Assembly (NCBI GenBank): GCA_022376515.1
Contig: WTXI01000117.1
Span: 1 to 64,000 of the forward strand
Reading direction: 5' to 3'
From: Lactifluus volemus
Lineage: Eukaryota; Basidiomycota; Agaricomycetes; Russulales; Russulaceae
Length of the DNA stretch: 64,000 bases
The notes below the pieces were generated by a model, which ran no database searches, had not been told where the DNA came from, and worked only from the letters and a program-made list of their open reading frames with translations. The position numbers were made by a program, and so were the translations under genes. The first letter of the stretch is position 1. Each line of letters begins with the position of its first letter. This document shows positions 5,436-28,117 of the stretch, piece after piece.

Positions 5436-8400
5436 TTATGCGCCATAATGCACATAATTAACCCATCGCTCCAAAGTCACTACTTTCCTCCTCCGCAGAT
5501 TCTTCACAGCGTCCCGAAGTGCCCGAGCCGATCTCTCATAATATGCAACACCCGGTTCGCCGTCCGAGTCACTCGACAATATTGACTCGTAGAAATGTTC
5601 GGCTAGATCGTGTCCATCTTTATCCGCCATCGCCCACATCGTCCCAACAACACTTCGGAACCCACAATATTGCATCGCCGCCGCAAGATGGAGTACCTCA
5701 TCAGAGATGCTCTCCTCAGTCAGCTCAGCCGTGTGACAAGCTGAAAGGAACGCAAATTCAGCCGCAGGAAGTCGGGAGCGCACAATCTCGAGTAGCGTGA
5801 GCTGCTGGCCTCCATAGAGCTTGAATGATGCGTCAAATGGCTTCCCTGGTTCCAGATTTCCATGGCACACAAAATGGGAGAACTGGTGATCTCTGAGACC
5901 CTCGACCACATTAGAGGGTGTCGCCTTCTTTGAGATAAGAAATGTGACTGTTGTATTGAGATGCTGTATCGCCCAGATCTCTTTGATGGCATGTCGCAGA
6001 GATTCTGGTTGTGCGACGAGAAGTATTGAAGGCTTCCCCGAGGTCTGCCCTTTGGGTTTGTGTGACTCTATGAGTGCAGATAGCGTTGGGGTGTATGATG
6101 GAATGTATAGGTCAGAAAAATAGTGTTTAACCCCGTCATCTGAAGGGATTGGCCCCATTGCATGGAGAGGGAGATGACAAAACACAGACGTAGGACACCA
6201 CCAAACTCGGGATTGTTCTGGTATCCTCATCTTGTGAAATTCTTGAATGACGGGCTTGCCTACAAGCTTATAGAGACCCTCGAGTACGAAACGGAGAGCG
6301 CGCTGATACTGCTTTGATTCAAGGCTGTGATCCTTTCTAGCTTTTACAAGCCGATCACGCAACTCGACTGCGCGGCCGTAGAAGTCATCGCTTGTGGTGA
6401 TAAGGGAAGGAGGAGAGTCGTAGAAAAGTATGAGAATGTCAGAGCGCAGTGTGCAATGGTTAATGATGATGACTGGTCCGCATAACGCAGCGGACCGAAG
6501 GGTATCAAACGACGGAGGCTTCAAGAAGTTACCAAATTCTGGTAAGGCTCGGATCCGCGAAATGAGTTTGTCGCGATCATCCAGAAGTTGTCGTTGCTTC
6601 GTTACGAGATGACCAAACGGATTCGTTTCCCAGAAGCCCCGTACTTCGCTATCCTCTATTCCCATATTTTCGCGCGGCGCCATGGACATGGTAACTTTCT
6701 CGAGGTCCCTATTTATCGCCTCAAATTCCCCTGCCAGATTCGAGTCGACTGTACGAAGTTGATCAGCAGAGGTGCGGAAACCACGCATCTCGGACCAGAG
6801 TAAGGCTCTTCCTCTTTCTAGGGTCTCGATTGCCTTGTTGATTTGGCCGGTGTGGACCTGGTACGATGCATAGTGTGGTGGCAGCTCCTCGTAATTCTCG
6901 CGCATAGACACAAGACGAAAGTGTTGGATTTCGAGCGTAGGAGCGTAGGAAAGAGTATCTTGCATGAGGGAGAAGGCATTCTCGTAGGCAGCTGTGACGG
7001 AAGGGTGACCAAAACGCCGTGCGAGAATTGCCCATAGATATGAAAACCTAAATTTCTGAGATACCCTCGTGGTAATATCGTTTAAAAGGGTGACGACTAA
7101 TCGAATGAATTCATTCAAATCTTCTCGGCGCCGAAGAAGCTGCGTGCGGTAATATAATGGCAAAATAAGACACTCGGCTAGACAATGCTGGTCAAACGCT
7201 GTGTTAAACAACTTGAGAGCATCATGGAATATGGCAATTGACTCATCGAGGTACTCGATTGTGTGGGTGTTCCTAAACGCGCTGAAGAGAAGGACACCCA
7301 GCTGAAAAAAGACACGTTGTGGGTGTATACAAGTTCGATCACGGTAAATCGAAACATGCAGCAGCCGACAGTACTTGATCGCCGCTTCAATCTCCTCCAT
7401 ATCGGTGATGTACATCAAGGTGTCAAGTGCCCGAAAGTGTTCCCACCACTGTTCCATGGATATCGAAGAATTAGAATTGGTAAGAGAGGCAGTGAGAGAT
7501 GAAAGGTCGATTGTGTGTGGATCACTGTGACGCTCATCTTCCACAACCTCAATGCCGAATTCGTCGAGGCGCTTGTCTGCGAGAGTCGCAAGACAGTAGG
7601 ACAAAAGGGGGCGGTACGGATCGTCAGGAGGAATCAAGTTGAGAATAGTCCTGGAATGGGAAATTGCCTCTTCCAAATGTTCTGGCTTCTCATATGTGGC
7701 GAATCGCATGTAGGAAAGTCTTGCAACCTCCGTTAAAACATCTTTCTGAAAGTTACTGCGAATGTCTTCGGGGAGATCGGGGATGGAAGTTATGGCTCTA
7801 TTCAAAAGGGTTGTTGCCTCCTCGTAATCAACAATTGAACGTTTCATGTCGAAGCGTCGGCACAGAGCACAGGCGAGCAGAAAAGAAAGCTCGCGAGAAG
7901 GGAAGCGAACGTCTGCTTCCCGGAGGCATTCGATCACTTGGTCTCCAAGTTCACCCTTCATGGCGTATGGGCTAGTCGATCTAAGGGCTTCTCCAAGGAA
8001 TATGAAGGGACCGATTGGAGGGCCTTCCAGGTTGAGTAATTCGCGGCAAACAGTCGTCATCTCCCTGACCTCCTCCATGCAGTCGCCTGGAATCAACTCC
8101 ACCCGATTTGCCAATGTCCAGACAAGAAATGACGTGACATAACCATATGGGATGACATCGTCAAAGCCTTGACGCCATAGGTCTCGCAAATGACGAAGGT
8201 ACTTGATTCCACGACTTGAATCTGTGATGTCATCATCTGGCCGCGTAAATCCGGCCCAGCGAAGAAAAAGGGTGAGGGTGAGCCGAAAGAAAAGCCGAAC
8301 GGGATTTGGTGTAGTTCTACCAGTCCTACGCGATGGGAGGAGTAGCGCTTCCGCCAAGTTGAGGATGGATTTTTCAAGCTGTTCGTGCGAATCAGACAGA

Positions 8401-8613
8401 CTGTAGTGTTGGAATCTCCAGAATGCCAGTTGTTCGAGACAACTGGGGCGCCGAGGGTCAAATCGAGGAATTAGAGAAAGGATGTTTTGGTGTTCATAAA
8501 TCAAGCCCTCGACTTCAGGAAGAGAGACTATTCAAGGTGGAAATTATTGATAAGATGATAGGAAAGTTCGAGTTTTGAATCCGGAACTTACGTTCAAGTT
8601 CCTGGATGTTCAT
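5436..8613 (-). CDS. TPR-CHAT domain protein, copy 1 (caspase-like peptidase fold)
   Basis: Two exons, 8592-8613 (22 nt) and 5436-8527, give 1,037 aa. The tiny first exon (MNIQELE) is inferred from a phase-1 GTAAG intron that is conserved in all three paralogues. Residues ~20-650 are helical and repeat-like, consistent with degenerate TPRs. The C-terminal ~400 residues match a CHAT domain, a clan-CD cysteine-peptidase-like fold first named for HetF-associated proteins. A likely catalytic pair is visible: His in HFVCHGN (about residue 896) and Cys in FLSACHTA (about 938). The motif GFRSVVGTMWAM follows, as in other CHAT domains. By family analogy it is a peptidase or a scaffold in regulated cell death; its substrate is unknown. 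It is a paralogue of the genes at 19125 and 24940 and has no lesions. Confidence 0.85.
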
Positions 8614-9342
8614 GTTGCAATTCCAAAGACTCAGAAATAAATCAGAAACGGTCAGAGGACGACTTTGGGCTAGGAAAGAAGGGAGTCTGAAATCGATGGA
8701 GTTGAACGTTGAACATGAAGTATGTTGCTGTTAAATAGAACAATAATCGGACATGCGTTATCCGCGTGTTCGGACTCGGGAACTTTCATCGTCTCATCTT
8801 CATGGCTCGGAAATGTTCCTGTCTGCCAGTGGTGGTCAGCGAGCCCCTGACTTACTCCCGTTAGGAATTTCAACAGGCAAATCACACTGAGTCTAAACCG
8901 AACTGGCTTAGGAATCATACAGGCAGAGGATGGCTGATGCGATAAAAAGTTGAGCGCGCTGGGCATGATGCCATGGTGATAATCTCGAGCTCAATCACAT
9001 GCCTGGGCGTGTTGTTCAAGGCTATAATTAGGTTGACGTGTCGTCTCCTTTTCTGCACTGTACCGTACCATATCATACCATAAATGCAGCCCAGTCCTCG
9101 CACCGATGCCTGGAGACCCCGGCCCCATGCGCCAATGCATTGAGAGGCATCTACATCTGTCTCAGTCTCACGTGAAGGGAAGCCATATGAAGAGAGCCGG
9201 CTTTATAACCCAAGAGCATATGAGGAATACATGAAGAATAACACAAGAATCTTCACAAAGCCGTAGTAGCGAAATGCCTTTTTGTCAGAGCCAGGAGGGG
9301 TCGCGATACCGTCCTCCTATAGGACTCCCTGTTTTTCAAGCT
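8614..9342. other. Intergenic, upstream of TPR-CHAT copy 1
   Basis: This separates the start of copy 1 from the 3' end of the PRPP synthetase gene, so it probably contains the promoter of copy 1. No gene or repeat was recognised. Confidence 0.45.
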
Positions 9343-10712
9343 CTAATACCCGTTCAATCCGTTCATACCTGTATCTACCCAATCTCCGAAAAGCAAACTG
9401 ATCGATTCGCCGTTGTGGGTACGACGTATGCTCTCCGCAATAGTCGCGCTGATATCTAACGTCACTAGTTTTGTACAGCTTTTTTGGTGCCCATCTTGTG
9501 GGATCGTATTTGTGACCTATAGTTGAGAGGAATAATTAACAGCTGACATTGGTATCGGCTGCGTAAATATAGGCTCCTACCACTAGTGTTTCTATTGGGA
9601 GATTCTCAATAACACTCATGCTCATTTCTGAGAACAAGCCTATTGGCAAGTCAACAACCGAGAGGAAGGGGGACAGTGTGAGATGCACCATGAGAGACGA
9701 GCGCGTAAGTTCTTGAAGCCCCATTCTCCTTCAAAGATCGTGCAGCTAATGTCAACGTCTTCCCAGTGTCAATCATATCATCTACGAGAATAGCGACCTA
9801 GCACAAGGTTAGTCAAAAATGAAACCGAGAAATCTGAAAGTGCGAGAGGTCATGGCAATGGACTCACCTTGCCTCTGACATCGCCAACCAAGAGTTCCAT
9901 CTTTTCCGGCGCGTCAAGGGCTTTGCCGTCTCGCTTCTTGTGAAAGAGGGCAAATTCGAGACCGAGTTTGTCAGCGATGGTGGTGACACTTGAGGACCGG
10001 AGAGGTCCGGACGTCAGCGTGGATTACTAAACCCAAAAAAAAAAAAGAAAACACGCAACCGTTTGGCACCACCCGCATCGGGACTAACGATGATGCTATC
10101 CTCCCAACCCTCGATATGATACTTGATATACGAAATCATGAGGGGCTCGGACCAGAGGTTGTCGACGGGGATGTCGAAGAAACCCTGAATTTGGCTGGCA
10201 TGCAAATCCATGGTGATGACGTGATCGCAACCGGCGACGGCTAGCATGTTAGCGACGAGTTTCGCGGTGATAGGTGCACGACTCTTGTCTTTTTTATCCA
10301 TGCGCGCGTATGGATAAGATGGGATGACGGCGGTGACGCGACGGGCGGAAGCACCCTTGCACGCCGAGATGAGAATGAGAAGCTCCATGAGGTGATCATT
10401 GACGTCTCGACAGGCAGATTGGATGATAAAGACGTCCTCGTCGCGGACCGATTGGGTAATCTTAACGTTGACCTCTCCATTTGAGAACTTGGTGACTGTA
10501 CAGGGTGTGAGGGGAGTGCCGAGCCTAAGGGCATGTCCGTGGACTGCTCAGGTGGCGCACAGGGAAAACTGCATCTCACCGCTCGGCCACAGCAGCGGCG
10601 AGCTCCGGATGGCTGTTTCCTTTGAATGTGGCTTTAATGGCAAAGAAACGGGTGATGAAGGGGAGGAAAGAAGCGCACCAGCGAGGAGTTGGATAGAGTT
10701 ACCGTGTAACAT
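9343..10712 (-). CDS. PRS: Ribose-phosphate pyrophosphokinase (PRPP synthetase)
   Basis: Catalyses ribose 5-phosphate + ATP to PRPP + AMP, feeding purine, pyrimidine, histidine and tryptophan synthesis. The gene is read through at least seven exons from ATG at 10712 ([12 protein letters not shown]) to TAG at 9343. Family landmarks run in order: [23 protein letters not shown], the ATP-binding region around [30 protein letters not shown], the PDAGGAKR strand, the PRPP loop [14 protein letters not shown], and a C-terminal [21 protein letters not shown] carries the acidic pair typical of the phosphoribosyl loop. Length is about 320 aa, normal for the family. Introns are short with GT-AG ends; one contains an A-run near 10029. 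A transposon remnant begins only about 85 nt upstream of the start codon and may replace or shorten the promoter. Confidence 0.92.
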
Positions 10713-10796
10713 TGAATGAGAAAGGAAGGTAGAAGTAGAATACTGGAGATGATAAAATAAAGTGAAGGTGACCAAGGGTAAGTTAAGGCTAAAAGC

Positions 10797-11639
10797 TAAG
10801 GTAGGGGCCAACAGGAACGGGCACCCTTATGTAATCTACTTGTATAAGCGCCGAGAACGGCAAAATATGGACTTTGAGTAAACAAAAAAATTTATGGGTT
10901 GGAAATGCTTCAAAAAGCTTTATACATTATTGAGGTGTGTATTATACTTTTTTTCATGTTCATTTTTGAGCTTTGTTGCCATTTCCGGAGGTAATGTTCA
11001 ATGGCCGTGATATTTATGGTTTGCCCAGGCCGCCTCTGGGCCACTCAGACCATGTCCATATGTGCTGATAAACCGGGCTGCACGATTCGCGTAACTGATC
11101 AATCAGATCAGCTCAACATTGTTGACATGTCCGAGGGCTCTCACCATTGAATTTGGACAACTGGCATGTTGTCAAGTGAGTTCTTGATGTTTTGCTCCAT
11201 TTCTTTCATGTCTTTTGTCTTTGGGCTAGTCCTATAGATTAGCTTTGCAGCTCCCCAGTACTGCTCAATGAAATTGAGCTTGCAATATGCGTTTTTGACT
11301 GGTTTTGGGTGTGCTTGGCTTGCCCCATAGGTCACGTGTTGACATTATATAAGCGGCAAAATACGGTTGACCAAAAATTGAATCATTTCTCTCTCATTGT
11401 GAATCATCATTTTAGAGCATTTGGAACCTCTTTCCAATAAAAATATTTTTGGTGATATATCAAAGGCATAAGGCCAAATTTTTAGAAAGAAAAACCACAG
11501 AATTGCAGGACTACATGCTCTCTATCATCCCCAGCTACCAAATTTCAAACCACTGTTATGTTGTGAGTGTAATTGAGATTGCCATAAAGTACGACTTTGG
11601 CTTACATAAGGGTGCCCGTTCCTGTTGGCCCCTACCTTA
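10797..11639. mobile_element. Non-autonomous TIR DNA transposon remnant
   Basis: Perfect 38-bp terminal inverted repeats occupy 10797-10834 and 11602-11639, starting TAAGGTAGGGGCC and ending GGCCCCTACCTTA. If the outer TA is the duplicated target, the element is AGGTAGGGG...CCCCTACCT with a TA target duplication, as in Tc1/mariner/pogo-type elements. The interior encodes only the C-terminal part of a DDE transposase on the minus strand (separate entry). It is wedged between the PRPP synthetase start (85 nt away) and the glutamate 5-kinase stop (about 45 nt away). Confidence 0.85.
10965..11335 (-). pseudogene. DDE-superfamily transposase, C-terminal remnant
   Basis: The minus strand encodes CKLNFIEQYWGAAK followed by a charged helix (KDMKEMEQNIKNSLDN). 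After a probable short intron it continues with NRAARFISTYGHGLSG and AAWANHKYHGH. This block is characteristic of a DDE transposase family I recognise from basidiomycete genomes; the glutamate in the LNFIEQYW motif is probably the last acidic catalytic residue. The frame then meets TGA where related proteins usually have Arg before TLPPE, which would fit a CGA-to-TGA transition. The DNA-binding part and the first two acidic residues are absent, so the copy cannot be autonomous. It lies inside the TIR element at 10797-11639. Confidence 0.75.
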
Positions 11640-11684
11640 ACTGATCGATCATTACGATTTGTTTGCTCAGAACAAATACAGATT

Positions 11685-13448
11685 TTATAACCGCCGTGCG
11701 AATATCGTCACATTTTCAACAACATACTCCGTATCTGCATATCCTAGCAACTGAGCAAGATAGGCGCTGTCATATGTGATTAGCAAAGAGCGATTAGCCA
11801 AGATGGGGGGGGAATACACACCTGTTTAACCCTTTTACCTTGTCGATCTGTGCCGAATTGTAGTTCGCTAACCCACGACCGACCTCCTCTACTTCCCATT
11901 GTCCATCGTCCTCCTCAATCACCGTAGTGTCATCCTCTGTGAGAGGCGATACACCCTCAATACCATCCGATCCCGATTCCTGCCGCATCCATGGAGCGTC
12001 ACCAACCGATTCAGTTCCACGTGGTGAACCAGGTTGAGTAGGCGCAAGTCCGCGGATATACTCCTCACGTGCCGCTTCCGCGTCTTCTGGTTCCGTACCA
12101 GCGGCCGTTTTGCGTATCAATATCCGCACCGCTTGTCCTGATGCAAACGCTCCGCGGACACCGACCACCCCAGCAGCTAAGAGGCGCCCCCCTGATTCTC
12201 TCCTCGCAAGGACGCAGTGCGCACCCGAATCGATAACAACATTCCCTGCAGGCGTCAGCGTATGTCGGGTCCAAGCTTTAAGGTCTCGCAGTGGTAGGGC
12301 GGAGGGCGTGAACAAGGTGTGCGGCGGTCGGATCATCGGATTTGCACCTGTGGAGCCCGAACTGAGGCCGTGATACTCGAGAATCGCAAAGAGAGACACC
12401 GGGTTGCGGCTGCCAGTGATTATTGTCGACACGCCAGCGGCGGTAGCGATTTCTGCTGCGATGAGTTTTGTTTCCATCCCACCTGTCCCTAGGCTCGATC
12501 CGAGGGTCGCTGTGCTCACTGTTACCACCAAGCGGGCATCGATGAGAACAAGAAAGGACCGTGCGGACAAGGAAATCAGATACCTTGGGCGCGAATCGCA
12601 GCAGTCGACTCTACGACCTCGATCAGTTGAGCCGACGGATCTTTGCGAGGGTTTGCAGTGTAAAGGCCATCCACATCGGTGAAGAGGAAGAGGTAATCTG
12701 CATGCACCATGGACGATGTTATCGCCGAAAGCGTGTCGTTATCGCCAAATTTGATCTCCTGAAACAACAATGAGACTTGCGTTTTGGACGGTCAGAGGCA
12801 ACCGATACCTACGCTAACAGAAATGGTGTCATTTTCATTCACGATCGGCACGACGCCCATGGAGAGCAACTCTTTGAAGGTGTTAACCGCATTAAGATAC
12901 CTCGTACGCTGAGGAAATGCCCCGTTTAGTATGCATTTGTGTTCCACAAGAAAATGACGGACATCAGAGATATCACCACGCGTCAGAAGGACCTGTGCGA
13001 TTGGTTGTCCCAATTGACCGAACAAATTGTCCCACAAGGCGATCAATCTACACTGTCCGATAGCAGCCAATGCCTTTTTTAACGCCAGAAGGCGCACACA
13101 GAGTCAGTCTCACATGTTTCAGACGTCCTCCAAAAAGAAACTGGCCTGCTTTCCAGAAAGACTTTTGGGACGGGCTGGCATCGCCATCCGCTGTAGACCG
13201 ACGCCGATCGCGCCCGAGCTGACGAGAACGACTTTGTGTCCTGCCGAGCGCAGACGCACGACGGTTTCCACAATGGCGGAAAGGGTGGAAAGGAGAGGCT
13301 GGTGCGTCGTTTCATGTACAATCGATGACGTTCCTGCATTTGTTTCAAGGTCAACATGTCAGTCATGCTACATGAAATCGTGAAATAAGAGTGCGAGGAG
13401 ATTCACACCGAGTTTGACTACTATAGTGAGAGCCTTGGCTCGGACCAT
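11685..13448 (-). CDS. PRO1: Glutamate 5-kinase with C-terminal PUA domain
   Basis: First enzyme of proline synthesis, phosphorylating L-glutamate to glutamyl 5-phosphate. Six exons (13409-13448, 13146-13333, 12813-13073, 12584-12758, 11822-12518, 11685-11766) sum to 1,443 nt, 480 aa. The amino-acid-kinase domain shows an N-terminal TIVVKLGTSSIV strand, [50 protein letters not shown] and [10 protein letters not shown]. The PUA region follows ([16 protein letters not shown] through [12 protein letters not shown]). An acidic insert of about 70 residues, near residues 345-415, splits the PUA-side region; such linkers occur in fungal Pro1. Intron 2 (13074-13145) has a GC donor; no GT donor keeps the frame. 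A single stop-to-TIR gap of about 45 nt separates this gene from the transposon remnant. Confidence 0.92.
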
Positions 13449-13934
13449 GTCTAGATCGTGAGGAAAAAATTCAAGATCAAGTATATATGATCAGTTTATC
13501 GTGTGCCTGGAAGTGCTGCCTATCTTGGACGACCTTCGAGCCGCTCGTCCACCTAGTGGGTCCCGGGCCGGTGTTTACACCTCCTGCTAGGTTATGTTGA
13601 CATGAAATCACATCCAGCGCACCCCGATCAGCGTCACTCTTTCGATGGAAATCCGTTCCAAACAACTGGTGGGGATCTCAGTCCAATCTAGCTTGGTATT
13701 CTCGTACACCACGATCAATGTGCCGACAGCTCATTGTTCAGAGCACCATCCTCGTTCAATTTTTAGTTTATTTCAATGACTCATGTATACACTAGTTCGA
13801 AAGGTGCGAGTCATGTTTACAGAGTCAGGGAAAGCTGACACCGAGAATAGTAGTCCATGCAAGATTCGAAAGATTCTCTCCCCTCGCCACCTTCGAGAGA
13901 CAAGTAGTCCAAACCACGGTTGACAATTTTTTGG
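13449..13934. other. Intergenic between glutamate 5-kinase promoter and dioxygenase 3' end
   Basis: Probably the promoter of the glutamate 5-kinase gene plus the 3' flank of the next minus-strand gene. Nothing else was recognised. Confidence 0.45.
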
Positions 13935-14760
13935 CTAGGGCATGAGTTCTTGAGGAGCCGGAGCTGCTTCTTCCTCGCCCTGGAGAATTTTTTCGATATT
14001 CGCTCCTAATTGTTTGCGAGCTTTAAGCGACAGCGGAGGCGTCTCGGACGAATATCCAAGCTCTGTTATAACAATCAGGCGTCCGGTTACCAGAGATAGA
14101 GAGTGCTTGAGACTGACTAAGGGATGGATATTGCAACGGAACCGTCTCGCTTTTCACTGGGAGAGTGGAGAGATCGAGGGGGGATGGGGCGCCTATCCAG
14201 GCATTTCGGAACTCGTGATCCCTGGATGTTCGATAGTAAGGAAAGAGTACAACATACTGACGTATTACTCACTTTCGCTACAGCGAGTGACAGGTACGTC
14301 AGTCGTAACAAGTGGGAGTCAAAGACAAGGTACGGACTTCTTCCTTGGTAAGAGGGTGCACGAGGATACTGAAACACTCATAAGTAATAGAAGTTTCATC
14401 CCTTTGGACCTTTGGACGGTACCTTAAGTCTCCGCGGTTCATGCACAAGTAAGAAAATACGGATGAGAATGATTCTGATGGGCACCAGATCTCGTATGAA
14501 CCTTGTCACAGGCAGCAGTCAATCAGGGCCATATGAGGAAGCAAAAAAAAATCCAGAGACTCACCGACTGGATGGGGGCCTATGGGTTCTAGATTCACCC
14601 GCCACAGAGGTACAGCGACGAAGGCTCCATCCCGTCTCAAACACAGTACGGCGTCACGAAGCTCGAGTGCAGCTTTGTGTTCGAGTTCATTCTTCTGGTG
14701 AAAATAAATGTCTGTGACGAAGGATTCGTCAGCTTTGACGGCGCCAATAATAGGTAACAT
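13935..14760 (-). CDS. DOPA 4,5-dioxygenase-like protein
   Basis: Exons are read from ATG at 14760 (MLPIIGAVKADESF) to TAG at 13935. The family core is clear: SFVTDIYFHQKN, an ALELRDAV helix, IGPHPVG, then after an intron SYEIWCPSESF, FSYLCMNRGDL and ILVHPLTKEE, then DHEFRNAWIGAP and LDLSTLP. The C-terminal exon (ARKQLGANIEKIL, then an acidic/Ala-Pro tail) is reached by a phase-1 intron that follows ALSIS. The family performs extradiol cleavage of DOPA or related catechols in fungal and plant pigment pathways; substrate here is unknown. His residues in GPHP and VHP are plausible metal ligands. The start is uncertain: an upstream exon with ATG near 14874 is possible, but I could not find a clean splice. 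No damage was seen in the core. Confidence 0.8.
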
Positions 14761-15165
14761 GTTCCATACGAAAATGCCACTCCCTGGAGAGGTTCAGCCA
14801 AATGTTAGTCGAAAGAGACCCCGCACGCACTTTATTTCGGATTGGAGTACCTCCTGCAAATCGACCATCGGACTCATTTTGTGAATTGAGTAGTTAAACA
14901 AGATACTGCGCTGCGGCGCCGTCGCTCGCCGCAGCAGGAAAACCACTCGGCCCGGGGATCCCTGAAGCCCGCCCGGTTCGTCACTCCTACCATCATGATG
15001 GATGTCTACTCTACGGAGGCCGAGGATTCTTTGAGTCCTTTATTCCACCTTCCAACACTTTGATTTGTTGTCACCAGCCAGATTGGAAATTGGCCGTTGT
15101 GGTATCGCTTTTCATTCGAGGGTGGCCTTGAAGGCTACTCCTCGCATTCCACAGGCACCTAACCA
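14761..15165. other. Divergent promoter region
   Basis: This lies between the start of the dioxygenase-like gene (minus) and the start of the lyase-like gene (plus), so it probably serves both. A possible upstream exon of the dioxygenase may fall at 14840-14880. No repeats were recognised. Confidence 0.45.
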
Positions 15166-16547
15166 ATGCGACGGACACCTCGGTGTTGTTTCTTTTCAAC
15201 ATTAAAGCTGTTACAGTGTTTAGCATCCCTTTCAGGCTCTATCCAGACTCGAGCCTTACAGCCACCCGTTACGCCACCAGCGTTCAATGACCCACGGAGC
15301 TTTTGTCCACAGTTCTTTCCTACCACGCACCCTTCCCTCCTATTCTCTGTGTTTGAAAATTCAATGGCTTCACAGCCCACCATCCCACCATCATTCCCCG
15401 ATAGACCCGAATCTGTCACTATGGAACAGATAGGAGTAACGTCTGACGAACCGAACGGCGACACACCCGACGATTGTTCGAATTCGGGTTCCTCGTGGGC
15501 TGCACCAAAAGTTTTCTCCGACCTTTCTGCATTTAACATCACACACTTTGCGTCGGGGAGAGATAACTTGGAAGTTGTCGCAGGCGTCACGTTCGATCCC
15601 GTTGCTCGTGCGGATGACACGTCTTCCTGGATAACGTGGACAAATGTCTCTACTATGCTTCAGCTCTTTTATCCAAAGGATTCAGTCAACCCTGCGGGAT
15701 GGCCACGCGGTGGCTCCGAATTTTACGCCGAACCACTCGACCTCAGTGACGCGCGCAGCGTCACTTTCGCATACAGTGTCTTTTTCCCGAGCGATTTTGA
15801 ATGGGTCAAGGGAGGCAAGCTGCCAGGACTTTATGGAGGACGTACGGGATGTTCGGGTGGAGATCCTGCGGTTGACTGCTTCAGTACGCGTCTGATGTGG
15901 CGGCAAGGCGGTGCAGGCGAACTTTATCTTGTAAGCCCATTCAGCGCCCTTTCTGACCCACCGAGCTGCTCACCCCGTTTTCGTCTTTCGTAGTACGCGC
16001 CGAAAGATCGGCAGGTGCCCTCCTTATGCGACGCACCACCCCTCACTGTTTGTCATCAAACGTACGGGTTCTCCATCGCCCGTGGTTCTTTCAAGTTTTC
16101 TGCCGGGTCGTGGACCTATGTTAGCCAGACCGTGGTGCTCAATACGCCTGGTTATCCAGACGGCGGTTTTCATCTTGAGGTTGATGGGAAGGTAGCGATC
16201 GATCTCACGGAAGTCTTCTACCGCGATTATCCGGACCGCGACTTCACGCCTGCCGGTACAATCCTTGGCTATCATTCGAATTCAGAGTTCGACCGTGATG
16301 GCGGGTTATCTAGCGCACAGGCATCCGATGATGGGATTTCGGATCATAGGCCAGTCGGGTTTAAAGGCATATTCTTCAGGTATGCATTTTTTTTACTATA
16401 TTTATGATGGGTTCGGACGCTCTGACACATTTATGATTGACCTTCAGCACATTCTTTGGAGGACACCAGAGTGAATTTGCCACGCCAAAAGACCAGCGTG
16501 TTTGGTTCAAAGATTTCTCACTTAGTATCAACGATTTTGTATTGTAG
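15166..16547 (+). CDS. Polysaccharide lyase family 14-like secreted protein
   Basis: Three exons (15166-15930, 15994-16379, 16448-16547) sum to 1,251 nt, 416 aa, all junctions in phase. The first ~25 residues are mildly hydrophobic after a basic start (MRRTPRCCFFSTLKLLQCL), consistent with a signal peptide. A Ser/Thr/Pro-rich spacer follows to about residue 130. The C-terminal ~240 residues match the PL14/alginate-lyase-like jelly roll: ARSVTFAYSVFFP, WVKGGKLPGLYGG, a Cys-containing loop, FKFSAGSWTYVSQTVVLNT, and the closing GIFFSTFFGGH plus VWFKDFSLS. In these families the enzyme cleaves uronic-acid polysaccharides by beta-elimination. The exact substrate (for example glucuronan) is not predictable here. 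Domain call is good; the catalytic residues were not assigned. Confidence 0.8.
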
Positions 16548-16653
16548 ACTTTGGCTGTATTTAGTAACCATGATCCACTCCTAACCAGAAATTAGGATTC
16601 ATTAAGGTTGACGTGTCTGTTACCGCACAATAATCGTATACAGCACAACCACG

Positions 16654-18299: not shown

Positions 18300-19124
18300 C
18301 GAGGTTATTCACTGCCTCAATCTGTCGATATTGAACAGAGAGAGATAATGAACTGCTTGGTAGCGGGTGGTTACTACGTCACGTAGTCGCGTCATCAAAT
18401 TCAAGACTCCAATGCCACTGTCACTGTTCAGAAATTTCCAAGTAATGTGGGTGCGATACAATAGTCAATTCTTTTATTTACACATGCCCTGCTCATAATA
18501 CATGCCACTTACATTGCCTTCGGTGAGCTGTGGGAAGCATCAGTCAACTTGAAAGTAAAACATGTATCTGCTTTCAAGTTGACTAATGATTCCCACGGTT
18601 ATACCGCATGCTCGTGGACGGTAAACCCATCCCCATCAGCCGTCAGGCGGGAAGTTTGTGCTATTCAGTTGCGTAGAATAATTGGTTGCAGCCGTCGCGC
18701 TTTCTCAAAAGAAATGAAAATGAGAAAAAAATAAATTAAGACCTTACGGAGTCCGAGACGAGGGAGGCAACGAGATGAATGGCATAACGAGATTACAGTA
18801 TGTACAGGGCATAAGGGGCAGTGGCAGATAACGATGACAACTAGAATTGAGAGAGACGAGACACATAGCAGTACTAGTAGTAGAAAGGGAAACAGACTCG
18901 GATTGAGGCCTCGCAGCATGGATTGATAACGCACCGGTGGTCCAGGAGCAATTAAGATACCGAGGATGGCGACAGTGAATGAGCAAAGGCCAGAACAAGA
19001 CAAATAAGCAGTTCCAAAGGGTAGTAGCTGTGACGCCAACCTCACATCTGCGTTCAATGTTCATATATCAAACGGAAGTTTCGGAACTCAGAAATACTCA
19101 CAGATATTGTAGTCTGAGTCCCAA
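18300..19124. other. Intergenic with hairpin and duplicated 3' flank
   Basis: This is the 3' flank shared by two convergent genes. It holds an imperfect inverted repeat (18532-18596). From about 18920 it contains a stretch that resembles DNA at 24760-24935, downstream of TPR-CHAT copy 3. No gene was recognised. Confidence 0.5.
18532..18596. repeat. Imperfect inverted repeat (hairpin)
   Basis: Two arms of about 24 nt face each other with roughly 17 nt between them. The core AGTCAACTTGAAAG at 18542 pairs with CTTTCAAGTTGACT at 18571, and pairing extends outward through GGGAAGCATC versus GATGATTCCC-like sequence with about two mismatches. It lies in the 3' flank between ALG2 and TPR-CHAT copy 2. 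It may be a remnant of a small element or a hairpin-forming transcript end; nothing distinguishes these. Confidence 0.55.
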
Positions 19125-22100
19125 TCATGCACCATAATGAACATAATTCACCCATCGCTCCAGAGGCATTCCTTTCTTTCTCTTCCGCAGATCCTTCACG
19201 GCGTCTCGAAGTGCCCTCGCCGATCTCTCATAATACGGCACACCCGGTTCATCGCTCGAAAGTATCGACTCGTAAAAATCTTTAGCTAGATCTTGTCCAT
19301 CTTTATCTGCCATTGCCCACATCGTCCCAACCACACTTCGGAATCCACAATATTGAATCGCCGCTGTAAGGTGCAGTGCTTCATCAGAGATGCTTTCTTC
19401 GGTCAGCTCAGCTGTGTGACACGCTGAAAGGAAGGCAAATTCAGCTGCGGGAAGTCGAGAGTGCACAATATCGAGTAGGGTAAGTGGTTGACCCCCATAG
19501 AGCTTGAATGATGCATTGAATGGCTTCCCTGGTTCCAGATTTCCGTGGCATACAAAATGGGTGAACTGGTGATGTCTGAGGCTCTCCACCACACTAGAAG
19601 GCGTTGCCTTCTTTGAGATAAGAGATGTGACTGTTGTATTGAGATGCTGTATCACCCAAATCTCTTGGATTGCGTGCCGCAGAGATTCAGGTTGTGCGAC
19701 AAGAAGTATTGAAGGCTTCTCCGAAGTATGTGCCCCAGGTTTGCGTGATTCGATGAGTGCGGATAGTGTTGGGGTGTATGAGGGAATGTATAGGTCGGAA
19801 AAATAGAGTTTAACCCCGTCATCCGAAGGGATAGGCCCCATCGCATGGAGAGGAAGATAGCAAAACACAGACGTAGGACACCACCAAACTCGGGATTGTT
19901 CTGGTATCTTCACCTTGCGGAACTCTTCTATGACCGGCTTGCCTACGAGTTCATAAAGGTTTTCAAGTACGGAACGTAGAGCACGCTGGTACTGTTTCGA
20001 TTCGAGACTATGATCTTTTCTAGCTTTCACAAGCCGATCGCCCATTTCGACCGCGCGGCCGTAGAAGTCATTGGCCGTGGTTATAAGGGAAGGAGGAGAG
20101 TCGTAGAAAAGGATCAGGATGTCGGAACGCAATTTGCAATGGTTAATGATGATGACCGGTCCACGTAATGCAGCAGAGCGAAGAGCATCAAACGACGGGT
20201 GCTTCAAGAAACTACCGAAACCTGGTAAGGCTCGAATATGTGAAATGAGCTTGTCGCGTTCCGCCAAAAGTTGTCTTTGCTTCATCACGAGACGACCAAA
20301 CGGATCCATTTTCCACGGGCCCTCGACTTCGCTACTCTCTGTATTCAAATTTCCACAAGGCGCCATAGACATTGTAACTTGCTCGAGGTCCCTGTTGATT
20401 GTTACGAATTCCGCTGCCAAATTCGAGTCGTGGGCTTCAAGTTGATCAGCAGAGGTGCGGAAACCACGCATCTCTGACCAGAGTAAGGCCCTCCCTCTCT
20501 CGAGGGTCTCAATTGCCATGTTAATTTGACCTGAGTCAATTTGGTACGACGCATAATTTGACGGTAACTTCTCGTAACTCTCGCGCATCAAGACAAGGCG
20601 GTGATGTTGTATTTCAAGTGTAGGGGCATAGGATAGGGTGTCTTGCATGAGAGAGAAAGCATTCTCGTAGGCAGCCGTGACGGAAGGGTGAAAAAAAAGA
20701 TGCGCTGTAGTCGCCCAATGGTAAGAAAATTGAAATCGACTGGTTAGCCTCATATTAGTATCCGTTGCAAGCGCGATAAATACTTGGATAATCTCATCCA
20801 AATCTTCTCGGCGGTTAAGTCGCAGGATGCGGGACGATAACGGCTGAATCAGACACTTGGCTGGAAGATCCTGGCCAACCCGTACATGTCGCGCTTCCCG
20901 AAGCACGGAAATTGACTCATCGAGGTACTCGATTTTGCCGCTGCTGCGAAACGCGCTGAAGAGAAGGTTTCCTAGCCCCAGAAGAACGGGAGCTGCGCCT
21001 GCGCCACTCATTTGTTCACGGTGAATTGAAGCGAGCAGCAGCCGACAGTACTTGATAGCTGTTTCTATCTCCGCAATATTGGTGGTGGCATTCATCATGA
21101 GGGAGTAAACCGCTCGAAAGTGTTGGCTTAATTGGTCGGGGGATAGTATCGAGGAATGTGGTTCGGTAAGAGACGCAGTGAGGGACGGTAAGCATGAAAG
21201 GTCAATAGTCATCGGATCTCCGTAAGGCCTTTCTTGATTTTCCCCGACACCAAATTCATAGAAGCGCGAATCAGCGAGATCCGCGAAGAAGTCAGAAAAA
21301 ACGCGGCGGCGTGGGTCATCAGGGGAAAGCGACCTGAGATAGATCTTGGCATGGGAAATCCCCTCCTCAATATACTCTGGCTTCCTAGTCATGACGCATC
21401 TAAAATAGGAAAGCCACGCAATCTCCCGTAAAGCCTCTTTCTGGAATTTGTTCCAACTGCCTCCGGGGAGATTTGAAGGGGATGTTATGACTCGATTAAG
21501 GATGGCTATTGGCTCCTCGCAATCAGCAATCGAATACGTTGCCCAGAAACGCCTAGAGAGAGAATAGCCAAACAAAAAGGTAAGTTGGTGGGAGCCTGGA
21601 AAACGAATATTCGCTCCTCGGAAGCATTCGATGACATGTTCTAGAAGTCCTCCCTTTACGCCGTGAGTGTTGCGAAGGGCTCTGCCCAAGGACATGAAGG
21701 GTTCGGCTAGATGATGTTCTGAGGCATTCGACTTGAGCAATTCACGGCAGAGAACCGTCATCTCTTCGATATCCTTCATTACATTGCCCGCATTCAACTT
21801 CACCCGAAGTCCCAACGCCACCACAAGAAGTGACGCGACATGCCTGTGATTGTGTGGGGAATCGAAGGGTTGAAGTCGTTCGTCTCGCAAATACCGAAAG
21901 TACTCGATAGAGTACTCAATATCATCTGGTTGCTTGAATTTGAACGAGCGAAGAAGAAGAAAATGCGCGAGCAAAAAGAAAACCCTGACGGGATTTAGCG
22001 TGGGTCCAGTCTTACGAAGCGGAAGGAGTAGCGCTTCTGCCAAGTGGAGGAGTAAATTTTCCAACTGTTCGCGCGAATCAGATAGATTGTAGTGCTCAAA

Positions 22101-22291
22101 TCGCCAGTATGCCAGGGATTTGAGATAGTTTGCGCGCCGAGGGTCAAATCGAGGAAACAATGAAAGGATGTTTTGATGCTCATAGATTGAGCCCTCGACC
22201 TCAGGAATAGTGACTGAAAAGACGAAATATGATACATTTATAACTCAGAATTGGTTTGAAAGTTAAAGGACTTACGTTTTTGGGTGTTCAT
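19125..22291 (-). CDS. TPR-CHAT domain protein, copy 2
   Basis: Exons 22276-22291 (16 nt) and 19125-22213 sum to 3,105 nt, 1,034 aa. The architecture matches copy 1: a 5-residue first exon, ~600 residues of helical TPR-like repeats, then a CHAT domain. The putative catalytic His (THFVCHGN) and Cys (FLSACHTA) are kept, as is the GFRSVVGTMWAM motif. It lacks the two-residue SD insertion seen near the C-terminus of copy 1 and is closer to copy 3 throughout (for example LNRVITSPSNLP is shared by copies 2 and 3). The N-terminal third is the most divergent part between paralogues, while the last 450 residues are nearly the same, which suggests conserved catalysis with changing recognition. No frameshifts or stops. 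Confidence 0.85.
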
Positions 22292-22929
22292 GTAAACCAA
22301 AAACGGTCAGACGACGACTTCCGGTTGGGAAGGGAGAGAGATTTAAATTCGGGAAAGGAGAAGACACGATGACTGGGGCACCAATCCACGTGGTGAACAT
22401 GACAGGACATCGTGTGCCAGTGTCACATGCCAGTGGTTTCATTGGTTCTTACTTGAGACCAGTTGTCTGGCAGGCGAAACGTTCAACTTGAAGTCACCCG
22501 GTCCGGTGTTGTGTGTACGCGAAGCTTTGAAGACGCAGCCAATGAATGACCAGGAAAGAGTGACAGGGGGCAATGCCAGCTTACTCTTCTCCTGTCCAAG
22601 CTGGTTGTGATCAGACTCATCTAGTACTGTATTTTTCCGACACGCACTGGCAATCGAACGGAAGAATACGTTTGACAAGCATGTCTTATAGAAATCAGAT
22701 GAGACAACATTTCACATTGGACAACCAGTCCAAGTCTATCACAGTGACATGGACTACATGTACAAAACCGAGCGTAAACAAAACCCAAAGTAGCCCCAAC
22801 TACACCGCGTTCGCGCACGCATCAAGAACGCTTACACACTGGAGAGGTTAGATGGGGAGGAAGTCGAGCGCGAGTTCAGCGCGAGAAGGCTGCGAGAGGA
22901 GCGAGGAAGCAAACACGGTGCGGACACCG
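22292..22929. other. Intergenic, upstream of TPR-CHAT copy 2
   Basis: Contains the probable promoter of copy 2 and the 3' flank of the kinase-like gene. No coding signal was accepted. Confidence 0.45.
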
Positions 22930-24021
22930 CTATTTGCGAGGGGGGAACATGGAATGGGGGATAGGGAACAGGTGGGGCGAGGACAAAGCGGGTGAGCATG
23001 TAGTTAGACGGCTGACATAATGGTTCAACAGTGGTTCTTGACGCGAAACTACGACTCGAGTGGCACGACTCGCCCCTCCAACATCCATGCCGCTAGTCTC
23101 GGGATTGCCGTGCTCATCCAGGTCTATGACGAACGTTAGTTGAATTCCCATATCGAGTATAAGTTGACGCACCGAGTGTCGGGTTGGCCACCATCCATAA
23201 AAGCGAGGAGACTGCAGTCATCGGGACAATGGAACTATCCGACAAGCCCAAAGCGATGGCGATAGGGACGAGGCGTTTCTCCGAAAACATGGTATGCGCG
23301 ACGAAGGTTTCGGGCAACAGCCCTATCTCCGCGAAATCCATCAAGACCGTCTTCCCGTTCTGGTCGACGCCGAAGTTGCTGGGGTGCATGTCGGACTGGG
23401 TGAACATGAGGCGATCACCGCTTATCTCGACGGGAGAGAGCCGCTTCTGGGCCTGGGCCGAGAGAAACGTGTACGCCTGGCCCAGGTTGCGTGTTAGGGA
23501 ACGGTGGATGGTCGAGAAAAATGAAAGCAAGGACGCACCTTGCGCATGTACCGTTGTAGGGCCTCGACGCTTGAGAAAAGAAGAGGTGCCCTGTACCTCT
23601 TAAAGAATTTGTGGCGGATACAGCCGCCCCCTAAGGGGCCAATCACATGGTTGGGAGGAGGTGGGACGCTCGAGAGCCATACGAGAGCCTGTGCTGTCCG
23701 GTCGATGAGGTCTAGAGGGGCGGCCGTGAGCGTGATGAACTCCATGACCAGATACGTGGTCATGCTGCCTCCGAAGTAGTGCACCACCTGGGCAATGCGC
23801 GGCGCATCAGGGTGGGGGTTAGACTTTGCATAGTCGAAGATGTACAACTGAGTTTGGAGTTCAGGCCATAAAGCGTAGGGATGACCAAATTTCACGAAGT
23901 AATCCGTCCCGATGGACACGCATGCTCGGTAGTCCTTGTCTTTCGAGTGTAAGAGCTGGTGGTTTGTGCAAGCCTCCACGATGTTGGCCTCGAGAGCCTC
24001 GAGAGCGGCATTCTGGTCCAT
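22930..24021 (-). CDS. Aminoglycoside-phosphotransferase-fold kinase-like protein
   Basis: Exons 23539-24021, 23173-23476 and 22930-23123 sum to 981 nt, 326 aa. The start MDQNAALEALEANIV is chosen because the reading frame and homologous-looking content begin there. A small kinase-like fold is indicated by FVKFGHP (putative Lys of the ATP-binding lobe), the hinge-like YLVMEFITL, the catalytic-loop-like FTQSDMHPSNFGVD with Asp and Asn in the right spacing, and VLMDFAEIG in the metal-binding Asp position. Such APH/choline-kinase-fold proteins are numerous in Agaricomycetes and mostly uncharacterised; a role in antibiotic resistance should not be inferred. The last exon encodes a low-complexity, probably disordered tail. 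It lies between TPR-CHAT copies 2 and 3 on the same strand. Confidence 0.72.
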
Positions 24022-24939
24022 GGCGAGATGTCCTGGATGATGCAACGTAAGGAAGGGGGAGGAAGGGCTACGAAATGACACGCACGAGTGGACCAGGTAG
24101 GGCGAGAGCAGACGATAGTGCGACACTTTTGATGAAGGTGAGCAAAGGTAGGAAGAGCGTTAAAAGCGTACGTGGTATAGTAGAGGGTCAAGAGGTGAAA
24201 TTTGGTGGAAGACGACAAACAATTGCAATGCTCAGGGAAGATCGATAGGGCTGAACATACACACGACGACGAACACGGAATTGATACGAGACCACGACGT
24301 CATGAACGGACGATGCTTGAGTGAGGGTAAGGAAGAACGCCCAAACGGGGTAGGAAGGATGCCTTTTAAGCACCTGTTTCACCCAATTTTCCTACCCCAC
24401 TTAGCCCCTTATTAGGCGTCCCACTACCCCTATGTGGCCTTCCACGTCAGCCGATTAGGGGCTCCAGCCAAACGGTTTCCCTTTATAGTACGCTTGCCTT
24501 CCAACCTTGCCATGGCCCATGGCTTCCCAAAAGGGATCACACTGTCTCACTTCCGCCTGCTTTCCTAAATACTGTATATTTGATAACAATGCTTCCTTTC
24601 GCCGTTGAGACGGGTGTTCAAGTTGCTGCCTGGAAGTTGACTCGGACTGCGTTGTGTCGACACACCCCTCCCCGCCTGCCAGTGTGGCGTAGAGCCAACC
24701 TCGAGGCGCAAAGGTGGTCATTGCCGAGGCAGCACCATGGAGCGGGAATAGAAACATGGCTTGATAGCGCACGGGTGGTCCAGGCGCATCGAGATACCGA
24801 GGTGACGACCGAGGAAAAAAAATTAATAAGCAGACTTCAAGGGTAGCGGTCGTGACGCTGACCTCCCGTCTGAATTGAATGTCAATATATCAGACGGAAA
24901 ATAAAAAATACTCACAGAAAATGTAAAAAGAACTCTGAA
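24022..24939. other. Intergenic with DNA shared with the 3' flank of copy 2
   Basis: Contains the probable promoter of the kinase-like gene at its left end. The segment 24740-24935 resembles 18900-19100, both just downstream of a TPR-CHAT stop codon, so the duplicated unit included 3' flanking DNA. No gene was recognised. Confidence 0.5.
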
Positions 24940-27900
24940 TCATGCGCCGTAATGTACATAATTCACCCATCGCTCCAAAGACAGCCCATTCTTTCTCCGT
25001 AGATCCTTCACGGCATCTCGAAGTGCCCTCGCCGATCTTTCATAATATGGTACACCGGGTTCATCGCTCGAAAGTATCAACTCGTAGAAGTCTTTAGCTA
25101 GATATTGACCATCTTTATCCGCCATTGCCCACATCGTCCCAACCACACTTCGGAATCCGCAATATTGCATTGCCGCTGTAAGGTGCAGTGCCTCGTCAGA
25201 GATGCTTTCCTCGGTCAGTTCGGCTGTGTGACAAGCTGAAAGGAAGGCAAACTCTGCCGTAGGAATTCGAGAGCGAACAATCTCGAGTAGTGTAAGTGGC
25301 TGGCCCCCATAGAGCTTGAATGATGCATTGAATGGTTTCCCTAGTTCCAGATTTCCATGGCACACAAAGTGGGTGAACTGGTGATGTCTGAGACCCTCCA
25401 CGACGCTAGACGGCGTCGCCTTCTTTGAGATAAGAGATGTGACTGCTGCATTGAGGTGTTGAATGGCCCAAATCTCTTGGATCGAGTGTCGCAGAGATTC
25501 AGGCTGTGCGACAAGAAGTATCGAAGGCTTCTCCGAAGTCTGTGCCCCGGGCTTGCGTGATTCGATGAGTGCGGATAGTGTTGGGGTATATGAGGGAATG
25601 TATAGGTCGGAAAAATAGAGTTTAACCCCGTCATCCGAAGGGATAGGCCCCATCGCGTGGAGAGGAAGATAGCAAAACACAGACGTAGGACACCACCAAA
25701 CTCGGGATTGTTCTGGTATCTTCGCCTTGTGGAACTCCTCTATGACTGGCTTGCCTACAAGTTTATAGAGACTCTCGAGTACGAAACGGAGAGCGCGCTG
25801 GTACTGTTTTGAGTCAAGGCTGTGATCCTTTCTAGCTTTTACAAGCCGATCACGCAACTCGACTGCTCGGCGATGAAAGTCATCGGTCTGGGTTATGAGG
25901 GAAGGAGGGGAGTCGTAGAAAATGATTAGGATGTCCGAACGTAATTCGCTATGGTTAATGATGATGACCGGCCCGCGTAACGCAGCGGAGCGAAGAGTAT
26001 TAAACGACGGGTGCTTCAAGAAGTTATCGAAGCCTGGTAAGGCTCGGATTTGTGACAGGAGCTTGTCGCGTTCCGCCAAAAGTTGACGTTGCTTCATCAT
26101 GAGACGGCCAAACGGATCCATTTTCCAGGGGCCCTCGACTTCGCTACCCTCGGTATTCATCTTTCCACACGGCGCCATGGACATTGTAACATGCTCGAGG
26201 TCCCTGCTGATTTTTACGAATTCCGCTGCCAAATCCGAGTCGACCGCTTCAAGTTGATCAGCAGAGGTGCGGAAACCACGCATCTCTGACCAGAGTAAAG
26301 CTCTTCCTCTCTCGAGGGTTTCGATTGCCCTGTTGATTTGGCCTGTGTCGATCTGATACGAGGCATAACACGACGGTAGCTTCTCGTAACTCTCGCGCAT
26401 GAAGACAAGACGATGATGTTGTATTTCGAGTGTAGGGGCGCAGGAAAGAGTGTCTTGCATGAGAGAGAAAGCATTCTCGTAGGCAGCCGTGACGGAGGAG
26501 TGAACAAAAAGATGTGCCGTAATCGCCCATTGGTATGAGAACTGCAATCGCTGAGATGCTCTCGTACTGGTGTCAGTTGAAAGCATGATTAAAACTTGAA
26601 TAATTTCATCCAAGTCTTCTCGGCGGTTAAGCAGCAGCATGCGCGTCCATAAGGGCCGAATAAGACACTTGGCTGGCAAGTCCGGGGCCACCGGTAAGCC
26701 TTGCGTCTTGAAAGCATCACGAAGTATGGCAATTGATTCATTGAGGTACCCGATATTCTCGGTGATCTCGAATGCACCGAAGAGAAGGTTTCCTAACTCC
26801 AACAGGACGGGGAGTGCGCCCCCATCCATTTTTTCCATCGAGGTTAGTAGCAGTAGACAGTACTTGATAGCATCTGCAATCTCCGCAATATTGGTGATGT
26901 TCTTCATCGTGAGGGAGTAAATTGCTCGAAGGTGTTGCCTCCATTGGTCCGGGGATATCGAAGAATTCGGTTCTCTAAGAGAAGTAATGAGGGATGGCAA
27001 GCATGAAAGGTCGATAATAATTGGGTCACTCTGAGGCTCTTCTTCAAGTTGATCCACTTGGATACCGAATTCCCCGAGGCGCAGCTTGGAGAGTTCCGCG
27101 AGTTGCCACGAGAAATAGGGGGGGTGCGGATTATCAAGAGAAAGGGAGCTAAGAAGAGTCCTGTAATGGGAAATTGCCTCCTCGAAATACTCTGGCTTCC
27201 TAGTCATGATGCATCGGAATCCGGAAAGATCCGCGATTTCCATTAAAGCGGATTTCTGGAATTTATTCCGATTGCCTTCGGGGAGATTGGAAGGAGATGT
27301 TATGACTCGGTTCAGGGTAGCTATTGCCTCCTCGCAATCAACAATCGAGTACGTTTCCTCGAAGCGCATGGAGAGAGAATGGCCGAGGAAAAAAGAAAAT
27401 TCGATGGAATCTGGGAAACGAATATTCGCTTCCCGGAAGCATCCAATCACTTGTTCTAGAAGTCCTCCCTTCACGCCGCGAGTGTTGTGAAGGGCTCTGC
27501 CCAAGTGCATAAAGAGTTCGGTTGGAGGACTCGCCGAGCTATCCGAGTGGAGGCATTCGCGGCAGAGAACCATCATCTCCTCGAAATCCTTCATGACATC
27601 GCCTGATTTCAACTTCACCCGAAATGCCAATGCCGACACAAGAAGTGGCGTGACAACATCGCATGGGATGCCGAAGCGTTGAAGTCGCTCGTCTCGCAAA
27701 TAACGAACGTACTCGATGGAATACTTGATATCATCTGGCTGCTCGAGTTTGATCGAGCGACGAAAGAGGTAATACGCGAGAAGTAAGAAAATCCAAACGG
27801 ACTTTGGCGTAGGTCTGGCCTTGCTCAGTGAGAGGAGGAGCGCCTCTGCCAAGTGGAGGATTGAATTTTCCAGCTGTTCGTGAGAATCAGATAACTCGTG

Positions 27901-28117
27901 GTGCTCGAATCTCCAGGATGCCAGAGAAGCGAGATAATGAGCGCGACGAGGATGAAATCGCGGAATTGACGAAAGGTAATTTTGGTGTTTATAAATGGAG
28001 CTCTCGATCTCATGGATAGAGGCTGTAATGGTGAAAAAAGATACGTTTATGAGTGACGCAGAAATGCGCGGAAAGTTCCATCCGGCCCGGGAACTTACGA
28101 TTAGTATGGGTGGCCAT
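24940..28117 (-). CDS. TPR-CHAT domain protein, copy 3
   Basis: Exons 28099-28117 (19 nt) and 24940-28022 sum to 3,102 nt, 1,033 aa. The first exon encodes MATHTN and differs from copies 1 and 2, but the phase-1 intron sits at the same place. TPR-like helices fill residues ~15-640 and the CHAT domain the remainder. The putative dyad is present in THFVCHGN and FLSACHTA. The reading frame also stays open through the intron into upstream DNA to 28242; I reject that extension because the spliced form aligns with the other copies. The gene is intact and is the upstream-most of the array relative to transcription. Confidence 0.85.

Follow-up and report, generated by a model that had tools for sequence, protein, structure and literature searches.

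The window, a stretch of 64,000 nucleotides of Lactifluus volemus DNA (positions 1-64000 of the contig referred to here as C21), carries three intact TPR-CHAT genes, all of them on the minus strand. The genome examined, that of a member of the Russulaceae, amounts to 62.4 Mb in 628 contigs. Copy 1 lies at 5436..8613 and encodes 1037 aa (exon 1 at 8592-8613, exon 2 at 5436-8527). Copy 2, of 1034 aa, occupies 19125..22291 (exon 1 at 22276-22291, exon 2 at 19125-22213), and copy 3, of 1033 aa, is found at 24940..28117 (exon 1 at 28099-28117, exon 2 at 24940-28022). The ATGs stand at 8613, 22291 and 28117, respectively, and the stop codons begin the intervals at 5436, 19125 and 24940; exon 2 is free of internal stops in all three copies. 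Exon 1 measures 22, 16 and 19 nt and is followed in each case by a GTAAGT donor and a phase-1 intron. The same pattern of short first exon, donor and acceptor recurs in 27 of 29 full-length frames genome-wide, window copies included, and was not found in the other two by the pattern search. Thus, the gene models of the initial annotation, namely three same-strand genes of 1,033-1,037 aa with a first exon of 16-22 nt and a phase-1 intron, are borne out.

The CHAT protease domain of copy 2 extends over 19131..19970 (minus strand) with its His/Cys motifs kept, and those of copies 1 and 3 lie at 5442-6284 and 24946-25779 on the same strand. The catalytic pair is His896/Cys938 in copy 1, as annotated, and 895/937 in copies 2 and 3. 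The TPR solenoid, mapped on copy 2 at 20571..22211 (minus strand; model residues 1-547), is built of helix pairs, each about 45 aa long.

The three proteins do not differ evenly along their length. Over reference residues 15-560, copies 1 and 2 share 53% protein identity, and copies 2 and 3 share 66%. These values rise to 80% and 85% over residues 561-758, and to 87% and 92% in the CHAT domain. The described divergence of the N-terminal part therefore stands, while the wording 'nearly identical' for the C-terminal part was somewhat strong.

Further along the window, tblastn detects similarity to the TPR-CHAT family outside the array, at 58019..58595 on the plus strand (the strand being taken from an ORF at 58168-58521). 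This stretch is apparently a decayed TPR-CHAT fragment. It sits between tandem duplicates at 54908-56316 and 59371-60789, which are 88-91% identical in DNA; an ORF of the 59371-60789 copy matches RTA1-like proteins. Another gene of the window, at 48210-52316, is NLR-like, with NACHT (NPHP3_N) and WD40 parts and an array of nine 129-bp repeats that are 64-87% identical to the reference repeat. It has at least 40 matching places in the genome among 638 candidates, which makes it the member of a second large family, about 20 kb from the CHAT genes.

Predicted fold and genome-wide family

All three window proteins match PF12770 (CHAT) above the Pfam cut-off, with 92-100 bits against a cut-off of 24. 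No Pfam TPR model gave a match above cut-off in any of them. The assignment of the N-terminal half to the TPRs comes instead from a family profile of 66 sequences, which matches consensus-TPR chains with whole-sequence E values of 1.5e-17 and 1.2e-13, and from the predicted fold. An AlphaFold model built on exon 2 of copy 2 (pLDDT 88) consists of a TPR solenoid linked to a CHAT domain of the clan-CD type, similar to Csx29 and separase. The predicted solenoid is a superhelix of antiparallel helix pairs, and the CHAT core, like that of separase and Csx29, contains the His-Cys dyad. The clan-CD identity put forward in the initial annotation is thus upheld by structure prediction. Similarly, the CHAT domain aligns to the bacterial TPR-CHAT chain 7x8a_D, and the dyad of bacterial TPR-CHAT is given as H585/C627 (PMC9729208).

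Both motifs are widely retained in the family. They are present in all 41 matching frames of at least 582 aa, and the other 16 of the 57 frames, fragments of 86-424 aa, do not extend over the motif region. Among the 66 aligned relatives, the His is kept in 64 and the Cys in 63; the Cys is lost in P0004 and P0058, and the His in P0031. A catalytically dead family was considered and, on the strength of this motif retention, is rejected as far as residues can tell. The length of the protein is also nearly constant, at 1014-1033 residues from model residue 4 onwards in 29 copies.

The window genes belong to a large, tandemly duplicated family of putative receptor-proteases. A CHAT profile finds 58 matches in the genome, many of them arrayed on C312, C615, C602 and C59. 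Open frames of at least 1000 aa hold 37 of the 58, of which 34 are strong, presumed alleles included, and three are weak (one on C401, two on C99). The other 21 matches fall in shorter frames, so copies do decay. Named relatives with at least 40% identity are all from the Russulaceae among the matches listed, and the nine species-named sequences among 43 further homologues belong to Lactarius, Multifurca or Russula, again among the matches listed.

The arrays also differ between haplotypes. Contig C596 represents the other haplotype of the window: positions 9800-12700 align to it in two pieces with 99% DNA identity, and over the regions of copies 2 and 3 the identity amounts to 98.6-98.7%. The allele of copy 3 on C596 is intact (98.9% protein identity). 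In the same haplotype (L029), copy 2 is broken up into two frames, and a stop interrupts the CHAT part of copy 1. Hence, assembly error aside, the content of intact copies differs between haplotypes. Contigs C312 and C615 match at 98% over stretches of 8.0 kb and 4.7 kb and carry different copies elsewhere. The pairs C312/C615 and C545/C263 are treated as presumed alleles, the check on single-copy DNA covering C21/C596. Presumed alleles share 96-99% protein identity. A haplotype-specific DNA element was also observed: an insert of about 849 bp at 10794-11642, with 41-bp inverted ends (98%), is absent at the allelic site on C596, where the junction shows a 3-bp overlap. The insert adjoins a PRPP-synthase-like ORF and a PUA-domain ORF.

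A genome-wide search with PF04598 (gasdermin) gave no matches, and since the controls likewise gave none, the result is uninformative. PADLOC returned no useful match. When the ORFs between CHAT genes were clustered (C312, C615, C602 and C21 stretches), no neighbour gene common to the arrays was found. Downstream of 12 of the 15 CHAT genes in the C312 and C615 stretches, at a distance of 1.4-1.7 kb, there is a small exon beginning MSLSSLF (loci L009, L011-L014, L016-L020 and L022). It may be a hitch-hiker or a linked partner. Its pN of 0.041 against a pS of 0.116 (up to 45 codons, 11 copies) would also fit a gene. We take it for a hitch-hiking duplicate, because the whole length of the spacer is similar between units (88-95% identity), some exon copies contain stops and a tblastn search of the window gave no match to the exon.

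Selection along the protein

For the selection tests, 29 of the 34 strong full-length frames were used; five partly retrieved frames and the three weak ones were left out. Across 84 close pairs, the median dN/dS is 1.21, 1.28 and 1.12 in the three solenoid parts, 0.53 in the middle part and 0.19 in CHAT. The corresponding medians of dS are 0.10, 0.13 and 0.15 for the solenoid, 0.10 for the middle and 0.16 for CHAT. The one-ratio model (M0) gives the same order, with omega of the N, middle and CHAT parts at 1.53, 0.73 and 0.24 in clade A (14 copies, on C312, C615 and C607), and at 1.27, 0.38 and 0.18 in clade B (seven copies, on C602 and C59). In the window set of three copies and one allele, the values are 0.58, 0.23 and 0.15. 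Pairwise, the three window copies show a dN/dS of 0.30-0.68 in N and of 0.09-0.11 in CHAT; their divergence is not uniform, in agreement with the annotated picture of a fast-changing and a nearly constant part.

Site models were then compared as M8 versus M8a for the N part of both clades and of the window set, for the middle of clade A and for CHAT of both clades. The N part gives 408 in clade A and 204 in clade B, the middle of clade A gives 62, and CHAT gives 0 in both clades. The selected class has an omega of 5.4. The M8 class of the clade A CHAT part (15 sites) has an omega of 1.00, which means no positive selection there. Recombination can inflate site models; CHAT is without signal, and the N sub-blocks, each with its own tree, agree, with the signal present in all six (116, 139 and 125 in clade A; 119, 40 and 70 in clade B). 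These values come from purpose-written likelihood code, in which branch lengths are scaled, not re-optimised, in the omega = 1 comparison. For the N part of the window set, M8 versus M8a amounts to 1.1, which is not significant for three copies and one allele, and its omega is below one; the case for omega above one therefore rests on the other loci. Thus, diversifying selection acts on the solenoid half in two clades of the genome, and strong purifying selection on the protease half.

Diversified positions of the TPR groove

Out of 529 sites, 72 in clade A and 41 in clade B have a posterior above 0.95. The two clades share 21 of them, against 5.6 expected (p 1e-9). Most of the diversified positions belong to the first of the two helices in a pair. 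Within repeats 1-11, the sites of clade A are distributed as 53 in A helices, five in B helices and 11 in loops, and those of clade B as 32, two and six, so that A helices hold 53 of 58 within-helix sites in clade A and 32 of 34 in clade B. A spacing of three and four residues places them on one helix face.

In known TPRs, positions 2, 5, 6, 9, 12 and 13 bind the ligand in HOP TPR1 and TPR2A, and the most variable positions, 2, 5, 9, 12, 13, 33 and 34, lie on the concave face (PMC1261162). At the six ligand-binding positions, 44 of 65 residues are selected in clade A or B, compared with 9 of 87 at the other positions of 1-14 (p 1e-13). The TPR register was set from the conserved core after the selected sites were already known, and the groove was assigned on the basis of this register and the order of the helices rather than on coordinates. 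Moving the register by 3 residues keeps 33-36 of the selected sites, a shift by 1 keeps 15-19 and a shift by 2 keeps 5-7. As the shift by 3 stays on one helix face, the face is more certain than the single position numbers.

The same distribution is observed where no site model is involved. In nine sister pairs (two of them presumed allelic) joined by non-overlapping paths of the N tree, dN exceeds dS in the A helices of all nine, with a pooled pN/pS of 1.70 (p 2e-8); loops stand at 1.01, B helices at 0.57 and CHAT at 0.17. The solenoid and CHAT parts of these pairs have a pS of 0.08 and 0.135, respectively. The selected sites are also the most variable ones in the 43 further homologues, with a median entropy of 2.95, as compared to 2.03 for other A-helix sites and 1.51 for B-helix sites. 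Among the window copies themselves, residues differ at 58 of 66 contact positions and at 32 of the 87 remaining A-helix positions; the corresponding counts are 203 of 375 for N outside the A helices and 46 of 280 for CHAT. In the two clades, selection is thus concentrated at those positions of the A helices which make ligand contacts in known TPRs.

Two explanations would account for the contrast between the halves in other ways. Redundant tandem copies could be under relaxed constraint, with the TPR surface drifting and CHAT kept for another job. The 21 matches in short frames and the N omega below one of the window copies point in that direction, yet drift cannot exceed the neutral rate, as the A helices do whereas loops sit at neutrality and B helices below it. 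Nor would it bring about a selected class with an omega of 5.4 or sites common to two clades. This explanation is highly improbable and is rejected on account of the rates above neutral in A helices. It could also be ectopic gene conversion among copies, and not constraint, that keeps CHAT constant. The halves do recombine, as is evident from the conflict of the N and CHAT trees, which reject each other with log-likelihood differences of 1265 and 308 (AU test with 5000 replicates, a number that the program rates as too few). Copies C186:3414 and C602:45495 are 92.5% identical in CHAT protein and 49% in N, with a dS of 0.15 in CHAT and of 0.6-0.8 in N, while identity between C312:193084 and C615:76118 is 98% for N and 91% for CHAT. 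Two of the three window pairs also show a dS of CHAT (0.58 and 0.39) below that of N (0.79-0.80 and 0.51-0.69). Nevertheless, in the 84 close pairs, the dS of CHAT is no lower than that of N, and CHAT dN/dS is 0.09-0.24 in every group measured. Exchange occurs, but it leaves the contrast in dN/dS unexplained. As the cause of the constant CHAT domain, conversion is likewise highly improbable and is rejected for close pairs by dS. The constancy of CHAT is ascribed to constraint, because it is mainly replacement changes that differ and because CHAT dS in close pairs is no lower; the contrast between N and CHAT is mainly a matter of selection.

A proposed recognition repertoire and its relation to known systems

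Dozens of copies with a constant protease and selected contact points suggest a germline-encoded recognition repertoire. The interpretation that accompanied the initial annotation, a repertoire with a variable TPR recognition part and one kept protease output, finds support here. We consider it reasonably probable that the family is a germline repertoire of protein or peptide sensors with a single fixed protease output, probably nonself-triggered cell death. The groove of each copy would bind a particular protein or peptide. By analogy with bacterial TPR-CHAT, in which target binding reduces the dyad distance of about 7 Å to about 3 Å (PMC9729208), binding may shift the TPR part and free the CHAT active site. 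The constant protease would then cut one conserved substrate, and the output would most likely be regulated cell death or another nonself response. Such an output is favoured because of two fungal precedents: hetB of Aspergillus fumigatus, a heterokaryon-incompatibility gene whose alleles are idiomorphic, is a CHAT gene (PMC11138114), and in Podospora a gasdermin is activated by a CHAT protease that bears TPRs (PMC12881547).

What the grooves recognise may also be seen differently. The repertoire could decide mycelial somatic incompatibility, each groove reading self proteins of the partner, which we regard as possible but rather unlikely. The haplotypes do differ in intact copies (C596) and in array content (C312/C615). 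Across four presumed allele pairs, differences fall on 20 of 262 contact positions, as compared to 50 of 1878 other N positions (p 2e-4), but two of the pairs supply 16 of the 20 differences, and one is without excess (1/64). Presumed alleles are, moreover, 96-99% identical, and incompatibility systems usually number fewer than dozens of loci. The idiomorphic hetB, itself a CHAT gene, speaks for allorecognition (PMC11138114). Between foreign ligands and self alleles, we lean slightly towards the former, as the presumed alleles differ by 1-4% and the content of intact copies differs strongly. It is less likely still, and in our judgement improbable, that the grooves bind host-plant, symbiosis or developmental partners and not nonself, with the protease signalling apart from cell death. 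Most Russulaceae are ectomycorrhizal (PMC7023826), the family to which all the listed named relatives belong, and HetF serves heterocyst development in a cyanobacterium (PMC8406250). Against this, selected interaction surfaces of repeat sensors are the pattern described for fungal NLRs (PMC4986451).

A broader proposal can be made, although tentatively. In the Russulaceae, a germline peptide-recognition repertoire may use a fixed-length TPR groove as its antigen-binding surface, diversified residue by residue at the contact positions and recombined onto a constant caspase-like protease. Such proteins would be NOD-free receptors of immunity or somatic incompatibility, and a candidate basis of nonself recognition in Basidiomycota. 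Somatic incompatibility is described as poorly understood in basidiomycetes (PMC8229728), and what triggers the repeat-bearing death sensors of fungi is considered a major open question (PMC10197012, PMC12881547). Since selection marks the binding surface and the output is constant, ligand hunts and genetic tests can target named positions and copies.

Several elements of this picture are already known, namely TPR-CHAT proteases, a fungal CHAT incompatibility gene, selected TPRs of NLRs and the TPR-CHAT expansions of corals. Among the matches listed, no open-licence title or abstract deals with a TPR-CHAT repertoire in basidiomycetes or with selection focused on the groove of CHAT proteins. 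With Csx29 and bacterial TPR-CHAT, the family shares a TPR part, a separase-like CHAT domain and the same His/Cys motifs. The NCBIfam Csx29 model NF041237 matches the window proteins with E values of 3e-13 to 4e-12, although at 46-50 bits they do not reach its curated cut-off of 300. The L. volemus family, unlike Csx29, is fungal, with a longer TPR part and a large repertoire with a diversified groove. The fungal CHAT proteases, that is, the gasdermin-paired ones and hetB, similarly combine a CHAT protease with a repeat sensor. The hetB product has 1,327 aa, and its alternate allele is without shared protein similarity (PMC11138114), while the L. volemus genes form a tandem basidiomycete family.

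In fungal NLRs (TPR, ANK, WD40), the repeat sensors are positively selected at predicted interaction surfaces (PMC4986451), which is a likeness to the present family. However, NLRs change their repeat number, whereas the TPR-CHAT proteins of L. volemus are nearly constant in length, and no Pfam match to NACHT or NB-ARC was found in the three window proteins at E 0.1. Corals have large tandem TPR-CHAT expansions that differ between haplotypes, as described in PMC12314368, and the L. volemus arrays resemble them in this respect. In the corals, the TPR parts can be as short as 31 aa and as long as 3,832 aa, in contrast to the near-constant length here, and the groove-focused selection seen in L. 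volemus does not figure in the coral passages considered. Bacterial TPR-CHAT defence, fungal incompatibility and the coral TPR-CHAT expansions are thereby aligned in one architecture.
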